A stretch of DNA of 32,742 nt from an uncultured Caulobacterales bacterium (lineage in GTDB: Bacteria > Pseudomonadota > Alphaproteobacteria > Caulobacterales > Caulobacteraceae), in NCBI GenBank assembly GCA_903851655.1, contig CAINOV010000367.1, positions 1 through 32,742 on the forward strand. Direction: 5' to 3'. Position 1 is the stretch's first letter. Each line of letters starts with the position of its first letter. The notes beneath the pieces were generated by a model. It was not told where the DNA came from. It worked only from the letters and a program-made list of their open reading frames with translations, and did no database searches. Position numbers and translations under genes: made by a program. Shown in pieces: positions 1-30,034 of this stretch.

Positions 1-1151
1 AGCCCATCAGCATTCAACAGCCTGAACATGATAGCAGTATGGCGAAGGCTGTAGAGCGTTCTGCTTTGCCCCGTAGCAGTCGTCTTGAGGTCAGCCAATT
101 TTAGCACCTGGTCGAATTGTCGGGCAATTTGCTGCAGGGCATAGGCGCGGTTCGATGAATGCGCCGGCTGGAAAACGAAATCGTCGTCCTTGCCGTAGCC
201 CTCAGCCTGTTGCCTCGCACGAAGGCGCTGATAAACCTTGATGGCGCTCGCCTGGGAGACCACCGGCTGCGAATGACCCTTGGTCGGTGGATAGTCTAAC
301 TTGAGATAACTGTTAGGCTTGTTGATGATTGACACGTGCTTGTGTTTCAGCACTTTCAGATCGGAAGGGCGAATATACGTATTGGTCATGAAGAGAATGA
401 CGTCGTATATCTCGTCATCAATTTTTATGGTTCTTTTTGCTCCCCTTGCGCCTGAAGCGACCGAGAACGTATTTCGCACATTGGTCCGAGCTGTTGTGTG
501 TAGCTTGAGATACTCATCGCTGTTGAACCAGGGTCGCGGATTATCGTCGAGCTTGAATGTGGGCATCGCGGGGAGGCTCTGGATCACCCCCATTTTCTGA
601 GCGTGCACCAGGATGGTCTTGATATGGGACCGGTAGGTCTTAAGCGTGTTGCTAGTGAGGTTCAGATCGCTTGAACCGATCTGCGTGAAGAACCCGCTGA
701 TGCACGCGTAATCGATATCGGCGACTTCCATCTTCCCGAAATAGGGGAGCAGATGCTTCTCCAGCCTCGCGGCGTCATACTTGGTCTTGGTGGCTGCAAG
801 CTCACCGCGTCGAACGCGGGCTTCATTTTCCAGGAGCAACTGCCGCGCACAGACTTCAAATCCGCTCTTCTTCGTGAGCGGCAGTTTGTTGATCGTCTTG
901 TATTTTAGCTCCGCGAAAAACTTTTTCGCCAGCTGAATGGCCTCGCGCCTATCCCTGGTTTTCAGGCTTCGCTTATAGACCTTTTTGTCCTCATAGAACC
1001 GCGCATACCAGTACGGTGACGCGGACATTTGGAAGATGGTGAGAGTGCCGTAGCCCTTCACCTTCTCGACAGTGTCCAACAACGGAACTGTGCGCTCGCG
1101 CCTGGGAGTGCTTGTTGAGCTACTCAAGTTGTCGGCGTCGGGATCTGCCAT
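1..1151 (-). CDS. Tyrosine recombinase / phage-type integrase, 3' end cut by window edge
   Basis: Reading the minus strand from an ATG at 1151 gives 383 open codons that run off the window. An N-terminal segment (about residues 40-85, with a YWYARFYEDKK-like strand) resembles an arm-DNA-binding or AP2-like integrase domain. A helical SAM-like core-binding region follows (about 95-200). The catalytic domain shows a first arginine in NTYIRPSDLKVL and the box-II segment YSLRHTA, where Tyr replaces the more usual His before LR. The catalytic Tyr lies beyond the window. The gene is clearly AT-richer than its neighbours, which indicates horizontal transfer. It sits beside a broken tRNA-Thr gene and points away from it, as expected for an integrase at the end of an integrated element. 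No good ribosome binding site precedes the ATG, so translation may be leaderless or weak. The family call is firm. The identity of the element (prophage, genomic island or ICE) cannot be judged from here. Confidence 0.88.
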   Translation of the reverse strand, partial: MADPDADNLSSSTSTPRRERTVPLLDTVEKVKGYGTLTIFQMSASPYWYARFYEDKKVYKRSLKTRDRREAIQLAKKFFAELKYKTINKLPLTKKSGFEVCARQLLLENEARVRRGELAATKTKYDAARLEKHLLPYFGKMEVADIDYACISGFFTQIGSSDLNLTSNTLKTYRSHIKTILVHAQKMGVIQSLPAMPTFKLDDNPRPWFNSDEYLKLHTTARTNVRNTFSVASGARGAKRTIKIDDEIYDVILFMTNTYIRPSDLKVLKHKHVSIINKPNSYLKLDYPPTKGHSQPVVSQASAIKVYQRLRARQQAEGYGKDDDFVFQPAHSSNRAYALQQIARQFDQVLKLADLKTTATGQSRTLYSLRHTAIMFRLLNADG

Positions 1152-1156
1152 AAAAA

Positions 1157-1184
1157 TTGTTGTATAGCAAATTCTATACAACAA
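1157..1184. promoter_or_regulatory. Perfect inverted repeat upstream of the integrase (candidate operator)
   Basis: Two 11-bp perfectly complementary arms, TTGTTGTATAG and CTATACAACAA, are separated by six bases (CAAATT). The inner arm ends five bases from the recombinase ATG, so anything bound here would block the start region. The placement suggests an autoregulatory or excisionase-type operator. A recombinase arm site is an alternative. Confidence 0.6.
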
Positions 1185-1232
1185 AAAGCGAAATTAATCG
1201 TTATAATTCAGCGGCTTAACTCTCACGCCTGA

Positions 1233-1274
1233 CGCATTACGAATGCGGTGCTCTACCGGCTGAGCTAAGGCGGC
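1233..1274 (-). pseudogene. tRNA-Thr(CGT) 5' half, truncated at the anticodon stem
   Basis: On the minus strand the sequence starting at 1274 reads as a normal tRNA 5' half. It has acceptor strand GCCGCCT, D-arm GCTCA...TAGAGC, and anticodon arm CCGCA-TTCGTAA-TGCG with anticodon CGT (positions 1241-1239). After the fourth base of the 3' anticodon strand the match to a tRNA stops. The final stem base would mispair, there is no variable loop or T-arm (no GGTTCRA motif), and no acceptor 3' strand complementary to GCCGCCT follows at the right distance. The break coincides with the change from GC-rich chromosome to AT-richer recombinase DNA, so this looks like an attachment-site junction. Between this fragment and the hemY-like stop (1275-1363) there is only a 6-bp GC hairpin (1285-1299) and no gene. 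Confidence 0.75.
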
Positions 1275-1363: not shown

Positions 1364-2866
1364 TCAGCGGGCCGTGCGCCGACGCCGGCCCGGCGGCGAC
1401 GGACGGGGCGCGGACAGGGCCGCGGCGTCGTCCTCGGGGCCCGGATCGTCAGGGATCAGCGGCGACAGGTCGCCGGACCGGTCCGCGGCGTAGAACGGCG
1501 TCGAGGCCTGATAGGCCACCGGCAGGTCCGGCAGCTCGCTCAGGACCCGCTCCCCCCGCTCCAGGCGCGGATGGATCAGCTCGCCCGTCTCGGCGAACTG
1601 GGACACCAGCCGGCTCCAGTCCCCGGATCCATAGGCGAAGGCGCGGCCCTCGGGGTCGATGTCGCTCCAGTCCGGCTCCACGGCGGCGGCGGCGGCGCGG
1701 GTGATCCAGCCCCGGGCCTCGTCGGTGTCGTGGGCGGCCATGGCCACCCGGGCCATCAGGCCGCAGACCCGGGCGCTGGCGTCGGGGCGGTCCAGGCGCT
1801 CCCCGGCCTTGCGGGCCTGGAGAATGTCGCCGGCCAGCAGGGCCTGCTCCACCAGCAGGATGCGGCTCTCGTGGTGATCGGGATTGGCCTCGGCCAGCTG
1901 GGTGAGGCGCCGCGCCCGCTCCCGCGGGGTCTCCGCGGTGTTCAGGTCCCGCCAGGCCATGGCCAGACCGGGGTGCGGCCGCGCCTTCCAGGCCTGCTCG
2001 ATCAGCTGGGCGGCGCGGGCGGCGCGACCGTCGGCGGCGAGGCGGCGGGCGGCGGTGAGCACGCCCGGGGTGAAGTCCGGACGCAGCTTCGCCGCCTGGC
2101 TGGCCAGGTCGAGGGCCTCCTCCAGCGCCTTGGGATCGGCGGACAGCTCCCGCCGGGCGGCGGAGGCGGCCAGCAGGGCGGCGCGGGCCCGCTCCGCCGA
2201 GGCGGGAGAGACGATCTTGCGATCCAGGGCGTCCTTGGCCAGGGACAGGGCGGCGTCCCAGTCGCCGGCGGCCAGCCGCGCTTCCAGCAGGGCCCGCCAG
2301 GCCCAGCGGGCGGTCTTGGTCAGGCCGTAGGCCGCCTCGGCGTGACGCACGGCGTCGCCGGCGTCCCCCCGCCGCTGGGCCATCAGCATCAGGCCCCGGT
2401 GACCGGCGAGGCGCAGCTCGGGAAAGCCCAGCATGGCGTTGTAGGCGGCCATGGCGGCGGGCTCGTCCCCCGCGGCCTCGGCGGCGGAGGCGGCCAGCAC
2501 CCGCACCAGGGCCGGCTGGTCGTCGATATAGTCCGCGGCCTTCTGCGCCAGGCGCCGGGCGTCGGCGCCGGCCCCGGCGGCCACGGCCACGAAGCCCCGG
2601 GCGAGGCTTTCGGCCCCTTCCCGCCGGCGGGTCTCCGCCCGGGCCCGGGCGGCCCGGGTCGGCGCCGCCAGGAACCACAGCAGCAACTGCCAGGCGAGGG
2701 TCGCCAGCAAGGCGCCGAACACCACCGTGACCAGGGCCGCGGACGCCGTGGTGTCGATCCGCCAGCCCACCCAGGTGACGCTGGCCGAACCGGGATCCCC
2801 CGCGGCGGCGATGGCCACGGCGACGACGAAGGCGATGATCAGCAGGATCAGGAGCGTGCGGGTCAC
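1364..2866 (-). CDS. hemY: HemY N-terminal domain / TPR membrane protein
   Basis: The protein has about 500 residues. It opens with two hydrophobic helices (about 4-24 and 40-62), followed by the charged stretch APTRAARARAETRRREGAESLARGFVAVAAGA typical of the HemY N-terminal domain, given here in pieces only as a landmark. Alanine-rich TPR-like helical repeats then run to about residue 440, and the tail is low-complexity, Pro/Arg-rich. The family is an inner-membrane TPR protein encoded with late heme genes; its biochemical role is unsettled, and it is not the protoporphyrinogen oxidase also called HemY. The GTG start at 2866 is chosen because it overlaps the TGA of the upstream gene (GTGA), which implies translational coupling. 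A longer reading to 2971 would lie inside that gene and lacks the family's N-terminus. It is the last gene of the hemC-hemD-Mic60-hemY operon. Confidence 0.85.
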   Translation of the reverse strand: MTRTLLILLIIAFVVAVAIAAAGDPGSASVTWVGWRIDTTASAALVTVVFGALLATLAWQLLLWFLAAPTRAARARAETRRREGAESLARGFVAVAAGAGADARRLAQKAADYIDDQPALVRVLAASAAEAAGDEPAAMAAYNAMLGFPELRLAGHRGLMLMAQRRGDAGDAVRHAEAAYGLTKTARWAWRALLEARLAAGDWDAALSLAKDALDRKIVSPASAERARAALLAASAARRELSADPKALEEALDLASQAAKLRPDFTPGVLTAARRLAADGRAARAAQLIEQAWKARPHPGLAMAWRDLNTAETPRERARRLTQLAEANPDHHESRILLVEQALLAGDILQARKAGERLDRPDASARVCGLMARVAMAAHDTDEARGWITRAAAAAVEPDWSDIDPEGRAFAYGSGDWSRLVSQFAETGELIHPRLERGERVLSELPDLPVAYQASTPFYAADRSGDLSPLIPDDPGPEDDAAALSAPRPSPPGRRRRTAR

Positions 2867-3723
2867 TGGCCGGCCTCCCGGTCCACGGCGGCGAGGTTGC
2901 GCAGGGCCTTCAGGCGGATGGCGGCGATCTGGCGCTGCACCTCCGCCCGGCTGCGGGCGCGGTCCAGCCACACCTTGGCGGCGGCGGGCCCGTTGGAGGG
3001 CAGGGACTCGATCTCGCGGATCGCCCCTTCCAGGTCGCCGTCATTCACCTTGCGCTCCGCCCGCGCCAGGATCGCGTCAGGGTCCGACCCAGTCAGCCGG
3101 TTGATCCGACGGAGCGTGAACACCGCCGACAGGGCGTGGTTCAGGCGGGTGAGCAGGCCCGCGCCTTCCGCCGGGGTCTTGGCCGCGAAACTGGCCTGAC
3201 GGGCCATTTCCGGGAACTCGGCCACCAGCACCGCCCGGGTGGGGGCGCCGCGTTCCGCCAGGGGGCGGAGCGCCGTCAGATCGCCGGTGTCGGGCAGGAT
3301 CCGCGCCACGGTGTTCAGCTCTGCGACAAACGGCCGCCCGGTTTCGGACGCCTGGGACAGGCTGGCGGTGGCCAGCGCCGCCGCAGCGGCGCCGGTCAGG
3401 GAACGGCGATCGGCCTCCAGCCGGTCGACCCGCGCCGCCAGGGCCGCAGTTTCGGCGGCGGCGGCGGGCTGGACCGGAACCGGCGCTGCGGCCACGGGCG
3501 CGGAAACCGGAGTCTCCGTCGTCGGCGAGCGGCCGGCGCCTGCGGTCTCCGCCGGGGGCGGCGCGGGGGGAAACAGTTTGGACCCATAGAGGCCCACCAC
3601 CGCGCCGCCGACGATGCACACGGCGCAGGAGACCAGCCACATCCACACCATCGGCGTCAGCACGCGGCTGCGCCCCGGCCGGGGCCGGGGGGTGAGGTCG
3701 GAGGGGTCGCTGGCGAGGGTCAT
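2863..3723 (-). CDS. Mic60/mitofilin-like inner-membrane protein
   Basis: The protein has about 286 residues. A short Pro/Arg-rich cytoplasmic tail leads into one membrane helix (about 24-46, including MVWMWLVSCAVCIVGG). A Pro/Ala-rich linker and a brief coiled coil (about 88-108, ARVDRLEADRRSL) follow. The C-terminal mitofilin domain shows FEMARQA-like, LNHALSAVFTLRRINR and ARAERKVNDGDLEGAIREIESL motifs. Alphaproteobacterial Mic60 is the bacterial relative of the mitochondrial cristae organiser and bends intracytoplasmic or inner membranes. Its gene commonly lies between hemD and hemY, exactly as here. The ATG at 3723 lies 10 nt after the hemD stop; an upstream in-frame start at 3828 would overlap hemD and is rejected. 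The coiled coil is much shorter than in the mitochondrial protein. Identification rests on the C-terminal domain plus gene order. Confidence 0.8.
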   Translation of the reverse strand: MTLASDPSDLTPRPRPGRSRVLTPMVWMWLVSCAVCIVGGAVVGLYGSKLFPPAPPPAETAGAGRSPTTETPVSAPVAAAPVPVQPAAAAETAALAARVDRLEADRRSLTGAAAAALATASLSQASETGRPFVAELNTVARILPDTGDLTALRPLAERGAPTRAVLVAEFPEMARQASFAAKTPAEGAGLLTRLNHALSAVFTLRRINRLTGSDPDAILARAERKVNDGDLEGAIREIESLPSNGPAAAKVWLDRARSRAEVQRQIAAIRLKALRNLAAVDREAGQ

Positions 3724-3733
3724 GGGCAACCGG

Positions 3734-4465
3734 TCATTGGCGCACCGGCGCTGCGGGAGGCGCGCCGGCCAGGGTGTCGACCACGACCTTAAGCAATGCC
3801 GTCTCCCGGGGGAACGGGGGACACGCAATTTCTCTGAAACCGACAGCCGCCAGCGGCGCGGCGCAGGCGTCGGACAGGGCGAACAGCACGGTGTGTGTCA
3901 GGGCCTCCCCCGGCTGCAGGCGCTCCGCCAGGACGGCGGCGGCGCTGGGGGACTGGACCAGGACCCCGGCCAGCCGGCCGGCCCGCAGATCCGCAAGGGC
4001 CGGCGCCCAGCCGCTGCAGACCGGGTCCGTGCGGTAGACGGGCCACGGGATGACGGCCCGCCCGACGGTCGACAGGTCGCCGGCGGTGACCGCGGCGCAG
4101 GGATGCAGGAGGCGCAGGCCCGGCGGCGTTCCGGCCAGCGTCCGGGCCAGGTCGGCCACCGCCCCGTCGGCGTCGGCGGCCACGGTCCAGCCCGCCGCTC
4201 GCGCCGCCCGGGCCGTCGCCTCGCCCACGGCGTAGACCGGCAGGGTCCGGTCGGAGGTGAGCGCCGCGACCTGGCGCACGGCGGCGGCGCTGGTGAAGAC
4301 CAGGGCGTCGTGGTCGCTCAACCTGTCCGCCGAGGTCGCGAGGGGCGTGGTCTCGATCAGGGGCGCGACCACCGGGACGAGGCCCGCCTGCGCCAGACGC
4401 TCCGCCGTCGCCGCGGCGCCCGGCGCGGCCCGGGTCACCCACACCCGCGGCGCGGCGCCGGTCAT
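3734..4465 (-). CDS. hemD: Uroporphyrinogen-III synthase
   Basis: The protein has 243 residues, the normal length. The start VWVTRAAPGA matches the family's N-terminal strand where an Arg sits near the entry of the active cleft. ALVFTSAAAVRQVAAL, VYAVGEATARAARAAGW and LVQSPSAAAVLAERL are the expected two-lobed HemD signatures. The enzyme cyclises hydroxymethylbilane with inversion of ring D to give uroporphyrinogen III, the common precursor of heme, siroheme and cobalamin. Its ATG at 4465 is only three bases after the hemC stop, so the two consecutive pathway enzymes are co-translated. HemD is poorly conserved in general, but adjacency to hemC removes doubt. Confidence 0.93.
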   Translation of the reverse strand: MTGAAPRVWVTRAAPGAAATAERLAQAGLVPVVAPLIETTPLATSADRLSDHDALVFTSAAAVRQVAALTSDRTLPVYAVGEATARAARAAGWTVAADADGAVADLARTLAGTPPGLRLLHPCAAVTAGDLSTVGRAVIPWPVYRTDPVCSGWAPALADLRAGRLAGVLVQSPSAAAVLAERLQPGEALTHTVLFALSDACAAPLAAVGFREIACPPFPRETALLKVVVDTLAGAPPAAPVRQ

Positions 4466-4468
4466 CGC

Positions 4469-5434
4469 CTAGTCCGGCGGGGTGAGGGCGTCGCCGCCCT
4501 CCCGCCGCACGATCTCCCCCAGCTCCCGGCCGAGGCGGCCGGCCTCGTCGATCACCGCCTGGCCGGCGGTCGCGGCGGGGATCGTCCCCTCCCGCCGCCA
4601 GCGCTGGGATCCGTCGGCGGCAAGGCCCTCCACCACCAGGGACAGGCTCCCGCCGGACAGGACGGCGTAGGCGCCCACGGCGGTCTTGCAGGAGCCTTCC
4701 AGCGCCTCCAGCGCGCCGCGCTCGGCGGCCACGCAGAGTTCGGTCTCGGCGTGGTTGAGGGCCCGGATGACCGGATGGTCCATGTCCGCCGTGCGGGTCT
4801 GCAGGGTCAGGCAGCCCTGGCCGGGGGCGGGGGGCGCCTCCACCGGGTCGATGAGACCGGCGACCCGGTCGGCCATGCCCAGCCGCTTCAGCCCGGCATA
4901 GGCCAGCACGATACCCTCGGCGAACCCCTCCTCCAGCTTGGCGAGGCGGGTGTCCACATTGCCGCGGAGCAGCTGCAGTGACAGGTCCGGCCGGCGGAAC
5001 AGGGCCTGGGCCTGGCGTCGCAGGCTGGCGGTGCCCAGGCGCGCGCCCTGGGGCAGGTCCTCGATCCGCGTGGCCACGTGAGAGATGAAGGCGTCCCGGG
5101 GATCCTCCCGCTCCGGATAGGCGGCGACGCTGAGGCCGGAGGGCGAGACGGACGGCATGTCCTTCAGGCAGTGCACGGCGAGGTCGATACGGTCGTCCAG
5201 CAGCGCCTCCTCGATCTCCTTGGTGAACAGGGCCTTGCCGCCGATCTCCAGCAGCCGGCGGTCCTGGATCCGGTCGCCCGTGGTGGTGATGAAGATCACC
5301 GGCGCGACCCGTTCCGCGTCCGCCGGGTCCGCGCCCATCAGCCGGGTGACTTCGGCCTGGATGTAGCGGGCCTGCACCTGGGACAGGCGCGACCCCCGCG
5401 CCCCGATACGGATGGGAGAGGAGCTGTGTTGCAT
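4469..5434 (-). CDS. hemC: Porphobilinogen deaminase (hydroxymethylbilane synthase)
   Basis: The protein has 321 residues, the usual size. It begins IRIGARGSRLSQVQA and contains DLAVHCLKDMPS, GTASLRRQAQ and LLRGNVDTRLAKL, the family's substrate- and cofactor-binding motifs. The dipyrromethane-cofactor cysteine is in EGSCKTAVGAYA at about residue 248. The enzyme polymerises four porphobilinogen units into hydroxymethylbilane in the cytoplasm. It heads the minus-strand heme operon and is transcribed away from tsaD. The 135-nt divergent spacer (5435-5569) must hold both promoters, but I could not pick a convincing -35/-10 pair there. Confidence 0.96.
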   Translation of the reverse strand: MQHSSSPIRIGARGSRLSQVQARYIQAEVTRLMGADPADAERVAPVIFITTTGDRIQDRRLLEIGGKALFTKEIEEALLDDRIDLAVHCLKDMPSVSPSGLSVAAYPEREDPRDAFISHVATRIEDLPQGARLGTASLRRQAQALFRRPDLSLQLLRGNVDTRLAKLEEGFAEGIVLAYAGLKRLGMADRVAGLIDPVEAPPAPGQGCLTLQTRTADMDHPVIRALNHAETELCVAAERGALEALEGSCKTAVGAYAVLSGGSLSLVVEGLAADGSQRWRREGTIPAATAGQAVIDEAGRLGRELGEIVRREGGDALTPPD

Positions 5435-12044: not shown

Positions 12045-12119
12045 GCGGGCGTAGCTCAGGGGTAGAGCACAACCTTGCCAAGGTTGGGGTCGAGGGTTCG
12101 AATCCCTCTGCCCGCTCCA
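12045..12119 (+). tRNA. tRNA-Gly(GCC)
   Basis: A complete cloverleaf is present: acceptor GCGGGCG / TGCCCGC, D-arm GCTCAGGGGTAGAGC, and anticodon arm CAACC-TTGCCAA-GGTTG with anticodon GCC. The T-arm is GAGGG-TTCGAAT-CCCTC, the discriminator is U, and CCA is encoded. It reads GGC/GGU codons. No deviation from a functional tRNA is seen. Confidence 0.98.

Positions 12120-28867: not shown

Positions 28868-30034
<1,167 letters not shown>

Follow-up and report, generated by a model that had tools for sequence, protein, structure and literature searches.

A tyrosine-recombinase island splitting tRNA-Thr(CGT) at the anticodon loop in a Caulobacterales genome, with a putatively decayed replacement half

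The window, i.e., the whole stretch of DNA analyzed here, is the entire contig C367 of 32,742 bases, taken from a draft assembly of 419 contigs and 3.85 Mb with a listed completeness of 100% and a contamination of 1.44%. At its left end, the contig breaks off inside a recombinase gene, 1.2 kb from the junction between an integrated element and the chromosome. The chromosomal flank harbors a hemY-like gene upstream of the tRNA locus (1364 to 2971, minus strand; PF07219 HemY_N, E = 7.4e-20), a mitofilin-domain gene and hemC for porphobilinogen deaminase (4469 to 5434, minus strand; PF01379, E = 6e-72). A hemY-like gene also adjoins tRNA-Thr(CGT) in G092, and hemC is likewise found a short way upstream of this tRNA in G218. 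The G+C content is 52% on the element side (1-1190) vs. 67-78% on the chromosomal side, the latter range being that of 1000-base intervals contained entirely in chromosomal DNA. The sole tRNA called by ARAGORN in the window is a tRNA-Gly(GCC) at 12045-12119.

Next to the element lies the 5' half of tRNA-Thr(CGT) (nt 1-42; 1233 to 1274, minus strand), which sits at its native chromosomal place as judged from the match to congeners and from the colinear flank. Compared with five congeners, this half has no mismatch to four of them and a single one to the fifth over its 42 positions. The match extends through nt 42 and, as the initial annotation had stated, lacks the last base of the 3' anticodon strand (39-43). 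Positions 1233-2757 are colinear with the intact locus of G003 (87.2% identity) and positions 1233-2758 with that of G002 (85.9%), both alignments stopping at 1233, and loci from two other genera (L053 and L049) align over 1232-2774 at 70-71%. The junction at 1233 is genuine and above chance, because the chromosomal side is colinear up to that base with congeners carrying an intact tRNA and because the G+C content shifts there. Seen against these uninterrupted relatives, the insertion splits tRNA-Thr(CGT) at the anticodon loop, and the proposal that the element had inserted inside this gene at the anticodon is thereby borne out by the colinear break.

The likely crossover core can be narrowed to TTCGTAATGCG (1233 to 1243, minus strand), which comprises the anticodon loop and four nucleotides of the 3' anticodon strand and has its only exact match in the whole assembly at this place. 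In other islands of the family, the displaced 3' halves begin at nt 32, namely with TTCGTAAT. The core suggested earlier is supported in that the crossover likely falls within TTCGTAATGCG, the exact bases exchanged being deduced from these comparisons. Between the attachment core and the recombinase start, a perfect 11-bp inverted repeat, TTGTTGTATAG-N6-CTATACAACAA (1157 to 1184), possibly serves as an operator or an arm site.

Regarding the recombinase itself, the open reading frame runs from 1151 to 3 on the minus strand, starts 81 bp past the junction and can be read for 383 amino acids; it is open at the contig end, and the C-terminal part with the nucleophilic tyrosine is missing. This confirms that the broken 5' half lies next to a recombinase. 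The protein scores just under the cut-off against the SAM-like integrase domain PF13102 (22.2 bits vs. 22.3; E = 1.9e-4) and has no match in NCBIfam. In an alignment with six relatives, R261, K291, R370, and H371 are invariant, these being presumably the catalytic residues of a tyrosine recombinase. A match to the recombinase at 1e-10 can be found in 27 of the 199 family genomes, the own genome included, the two nearest relatives among them being those of G218 and G015 (34-36% identity), each of which has an intact tRNA-Thr(CGT) nearby. The G218 recombinase is enclosed by this tRNA (28899-28974) and a 3' half covering nt 32-76, some 9.7 kb further on, and in G015, two 3' halves are found 2.6 kb and 17.4 kb downstream of the tRNA with the recombinase between them. 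Placed in this way, these relatives belong to islands inserted in the anticodon loop of tRNA-Thr(CGT) and lie kilobases from the tRNA, vs. 81 bp in the window. No closer relative was found by peptide-pattern scans of genome contigs and viral contigs, nor in phages, and plasmid records gave four matches at 23-26% identity. Among 385 genomes of the class, three further ones have a match at E up to 1e-25, and no tRNA is called in the flanks of these three genes (up to 20 kb a side, less at contig ends). A search of the own assembly with the C-terminal stretch of the G015 recombinase gave nothing at E up to 1, a weak negative as it had no positive control.

The initial annotation had held that no T-arm or acceptor strand follows the break. 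This is not confirmed, as the 22 nt that follow on the element side (1232 to 1211, minus strand) seem to form a putative degenerate tRNA-Thr 3' half with remnants of the variable loop, the T-arm and the acceptor strand. Anchored at the junction, this stretch, TCAGGCGTGAGAGTTAAGCCGC, lacks GGGG and CACC relative to a 3' half from the family that ends in CACCTAAGCGGC and is otherwise identical to it at 18 of 22 positions. Besides showing these two 4-nt deletions, the stretch has a broken T-arm, and five of the seven acceptor pairs can be formed. The Rfam tRNA model, which is independent of this idea, aligns end to end (1-71) across the junction with a shortened T-arm, at a sub-threshold 26.3 bits compared with a gathering score of 29, and ARAGORN makes no call at the site; neither of the two marks used to recognize a functional tRNA, i.e., a score above the curated cut-off together with an ARAGORN call, is thus found at the junction, and no intact tRNA is called at 1199-1274.

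The resemblance of the 22 nt to a 3' half depends on the controls with which it is compared. When the local alignment was left free, the similarity was not significant: 106 shuffles and 50 Markov sequences (out of 5000 each) reached the score, as did 4846 of the 19983 40-mers from the window and 321 of the 2300 from the element. When it was anchored at the junction and scored against two variants, the score was reached by 47 of 5000 shuffles, by 3656 of the 20000 40-mers from the chromosome and 131 of the 2300 from the element, and by none of 334 GC-matched 40-mers. The early tests of the decayed-half idea were hence mixed to negative and the GC-matched anchored test positive; without GC matching, the similarity to a 3' half is not significant, the unmatched controls being inflated because both the tRNA and the chromosome are GC-rich. 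With several family variants, the best of which was taken in data and controls alike, three scorings were reached by 19, 32, and 8 of 4000 GC-matched real 40-mers (4000 of 9702 pooled 40-mers, from which those with TTCGA had been dropped beforehand, and no more than 8 of the 14 3'-half variants collected), by 16, 29, and 2 of 3000 shuffles of the 40 nt, and, when the 82-nt arm was shuffled and sampled 3000 times, by 5, 9, and 2 of the draws. These figures are suggestive of a decayed tRNA-Thr 3' half and support it short of proof.

The assembly was also searched for the missing parts of the gene. It contains 35 tRNAs above the cut-off, including tRNA-Thr(TGT) and tRNA-Thr(GGT), and neither a second tRNA-Thr(CGT) among these 35 nor its intact pattern elsewhere. 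The initial annotation had foreseen that ACG codons were left to tRNA-Thr(TGT) or that a second copy exists elsewhere; in the genome-wide tRNA search that it called for, tRNA-Thr(TGT) is present and no other tRNA-Thr(CGT) is found in the assembly. There is one tRNA-Thr(CGT) 5' half in the assembly. Querying the own genome with tRNA-Thr(CGT) gave two matches, namely this 5' half and a second one that is probably tRNA-Thr(GGT) (72% over the full query length). Similarity and pattern searches of the assembly did not find a displaced tRNA-Thr 3' half; a 3'-half pattern with up to three mismatches gave 24 matches vs. 78 for its reversed control, i.e., noise, and ten of these 24 loci had no match to the tRNA by BLAST, the other 14 having been viewed as 20-base lines.

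Regarding the far end of the element, congener DNA downstream of the tRNA matches another contig of the assembly, C211, from position 2092 onward at 82-87%, and the counterpart of this position lies about 630 bp past the tRNA in G003 and 1770 bp past it in G002. Since congener downstream DNA resumes there, C211:1 and C367:1 face each other across unassembled DNA, which would hold the rest of the island. Two other candidates for the left neighbor, C178:34-293 and C42:2893-2996, gave weak matches only, and C211 (82% over about 850 bases) was preferred; C178 carries an intact tRNA-Gly(CCC). The first 2091 bases of C211 match neither the downstream stretches of the two congeners nor any tRNA, and their open reading frames include an LprI-domain gene. 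Genes with this domain (PF07007) recur downstream of tRNA-Thr(CGT) in three genomes, at L097:623-1150 in the own C211, at L102:3564-3965 and 4240-4635 in G015 and at L104:8044-9315 in G218. C211 also encodes, at L097:1141-1842, a 233-aa protein without a Pfam match that starts with MRELAAEELKRVSGG, by eye resembling a double-glycine leader placed ahead of a lysozyme-like part.

Under every model, the chromosomal 3' half is expected in the gap unless it was deleted, so that its absence from the assembly does not prove loss of the gene. The loss of tRNA-Thr(CGT) that had been read from the break is accordingly not supported as an implication of it, the chromosomal 3' half not having been found either and the unassembled DNA being a place that could hold an intact copy.

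Loss of this tRNA seems to be tolerated in the family. Its intact pattern is found in 188 of 199 family genomes, the own genome, which is without it, being counted among the 199; the figure of 188 is maybe slightly high, as the pattern allows three mismatches and also matches a few Thr(TGT) genes. The 11 genomes without the pattern are the own one, G012, G092 and eight others. In G012, the tRNA is split between two contig ends, and G092 was rejected as a second broken case, its tRNA-Thr(CGT) being complete, with a single additional base in the T loop. This latter gene (L161:11007-11083; extra base within TTCGAAGTC) is still called as a tRNA by ARAGORN and is possibly a decaying gene or a sequencing error. 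The other eight genomes reach at most 58 bits to the tRNA-Thr(CGT) query, compared with 98-133 bits for intact copies of at least 88% identity among the matches listed, and five of these eight, none of which has a convincing match, are at least 90% complete. In seven long open reading frames of the window, which are unconfirmed as genes, ACG makes up 25 of 163 threonine codons. Such codons would be read by tRNA-Thr(UGU) through wobble.

Other tRNA fragments are found in the own genome and in the family. A 49-nt 3' part of tRNA-Lys(CTT) (nt 28-76; L037:928-976, i.e., C287:5927-5975) shows 100% identity to the intact gene and is located some 320 bp away from the end of a contig; it is probably a fragment displaced by another island, a canonical one. 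G008 contains nt 4-47 of tRNA-Thr(CGT) a second time (L105:692-735), together with the upstream flank (identity at 75 of 78 bp) and some 19 kb away from the intact gene; the stretch examined around it contains no relative of the window recombinase.

The explanation that accounts best for the locus, held with roughly even confidence, is that of an ordinary tRNA-targeting tyrosine-recombinase island at tRNA-Thr(CGT) whose replacement half has since decayed. It starts from what has been shown, namely the native 5' half, the junction, the link of the recombinase family to tRNA-Thr(CGT) and the lack of a second assembled copy. One end of the island would lie at the anticodon loop of a single-copy tRNA-Thr(CGT), and the attachment site of the element would have supplied a 3' half to replace the displaced one, as in the islands of its nearest relatives. 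If it carried such a half, the tRNA was probably whole right after insertion. The replacement half would then have decayed through two 4-nt deletions and through substitutions, breaking the T-arm and two of the seven acceptor pairs, and the presumed outcome is a pseudogene at the recombinase end, with ACG read by tRNA-Thr(UGU). Against this decay speak the non-significant similarity in the tests without GC matching, the identity of only 34-36% to the relatives, whose recombinases are kilobases away from the tRNA, and the chromosomal 3' half not found in the assembly, the missing DNA being a place where an intact gene may lie. The broader claim that the island durably cost its host tRNA-Thr(CGT), its attachment site no longer encoding or never having encoded a working 3' half and ACG resting on tRNA-Thr(UGU), is considered slightly more probable than its opposite.

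Alternatively, the island could be of the 5' type, in which the element's own 5' half and the chromosomal 3' half rebuild tRNA-Thr(CGT) at the unassembled far end; no tRNA would have been lost, and the native 5' half would be a harmless fragment beside the recombinase. A 5' fragment beside the integrase is the signature of this type, which accounts for 159 of 3919 islands in the part of the Islander description consulted (PMC4383910). The far end is indeed absent from the assembly, and the gene is kept in most of the family by the count given above. A possible precedent in the family at the same tRNA is seen in G019 (L129:2759-2891), G180 (L164:1806-1938) and G067 (L165, about 366-480), where an orphan 5' half (nt 1-39) lies a little upstream of an intact tRNA-Thr(CGT), from which it is separated by a short insert opening with TAGCGGGT (94 bp in G019, 94 bp in G180, about 82 bp in G067). 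The inserts of G019 and G180 have TTAGTAGGGCATTAGTAG in common, and in G180 the core forms an inverted repeat with the insert start; the arrangement looks like a scar or a mini-element of a 5'-type insertion. However, the nearest relatives of the recombinase reside in 3'-type islands, the sequence past the core is 3'-half-like in the GC-matched tests, and the assembly lacks both an intact copy and a second 5' half, which makes a rebuilt gene at the far end somewhat unlikely.

Outright breakage, the view of the initial annotation, is a further possibility, in that the element may never have had a usable replacement half, or that a later deletion may have taken the far end together with the chromosomal 3' half, the loss being tolerated. 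The missing 3' half, the first 2091 bases of C211 with their lack of congener and tRNA matches, and the apparent tolerance of loss in other genomes are in keeping with it. Yet, considering the resemblance of the 22 nt to a 3' half, and that the missing half is more simply accounted for by a 419-contig draft with a break in the recombinase, breakage of this kind appears clearly unlikely. Finally, an assembly chimera, with unrelated low-GC DNA wrongly joined to the tRNA 5' half, would suit a fragmented draft whose contig ends so near the junction but is hardly credible, since the recombinase subfamily is found at tRNA-Thr(CGT) in two other genomes and the join falls in the anticodon loop and stem, where the islands of the family insert.

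The tolerance of islands in tRNA genes is ascribed to the rebuilding of the gene. If the loss is durable, the locus breaks the usual rule by which tRNA-targeting integrases leave the gene functional, and a decayed replacement half would show the limit of this rule, a redundant isoacceptor letting a rebuilt gene rot; the island would then be locked in a pseudogene and the host tRNA set be one short. Tools that seek an intact tRNA together with a fragment will miss islands with a decayed replacement half. If the far end holds an intact gene, the island is an ordinary one of the 5' type.

With regards to known systems, the rule stated in the consulted part of the Islander description is that an island restores the tRNA gene that it splits, and among its 3919 islands, 3760 have a 3' fragment and 159 a 5' fragment, 2083 are anticodon-centered and 148 have damage (PMC4383910). 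Sites in the 5' half, from which the gene is restored under another promoter, are seldom met in bacteria according to the sections used of a review on archaeal tyrosine recombinases (PMC8371274), and tRNA fragments left by integration are described, in the accessible portion of a further study, as causing annotation errors (PMC9897764). A limited search of titles and abstract openings found no description of a case like the present one. As in the 3'-fragment islands outlined for Islander (PMC4383910), a tyrosine recombinase, an anticodon-loop site and a chromosomal 5' half at the recombinase end are found here, and relatives of the recombinase occupy such islands at tRNA-Thr(CGT); unlike them, the locus has a non-functional tRNA at the window end and a degenerate replacement half, and the displaced 3' half was not found in the assembly. 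The orphan 5' half beside the recombinase is shared with 5'-fragment islands as these excerpts present them (Islander, PMC4383910; pTN3-like archaeal integrases, PMC8371274), from which the locus differs in that no restored tRNA was found in the assembly and that the DNA past the junction is 3'-half-like. The locus also shares with the Islander category "Islands with damage" the site-specific insertion in a tRNA gene and the defect in a piece of that tRNA, but the damage reported there, in the text available, is a short stretch deleted from the displaced 3' fragment, whereas here it lies in the restoring half (PMC4383910). The locus is of a known kind, namely a tRNA-loop island, the replacement half of which has probably decayed.
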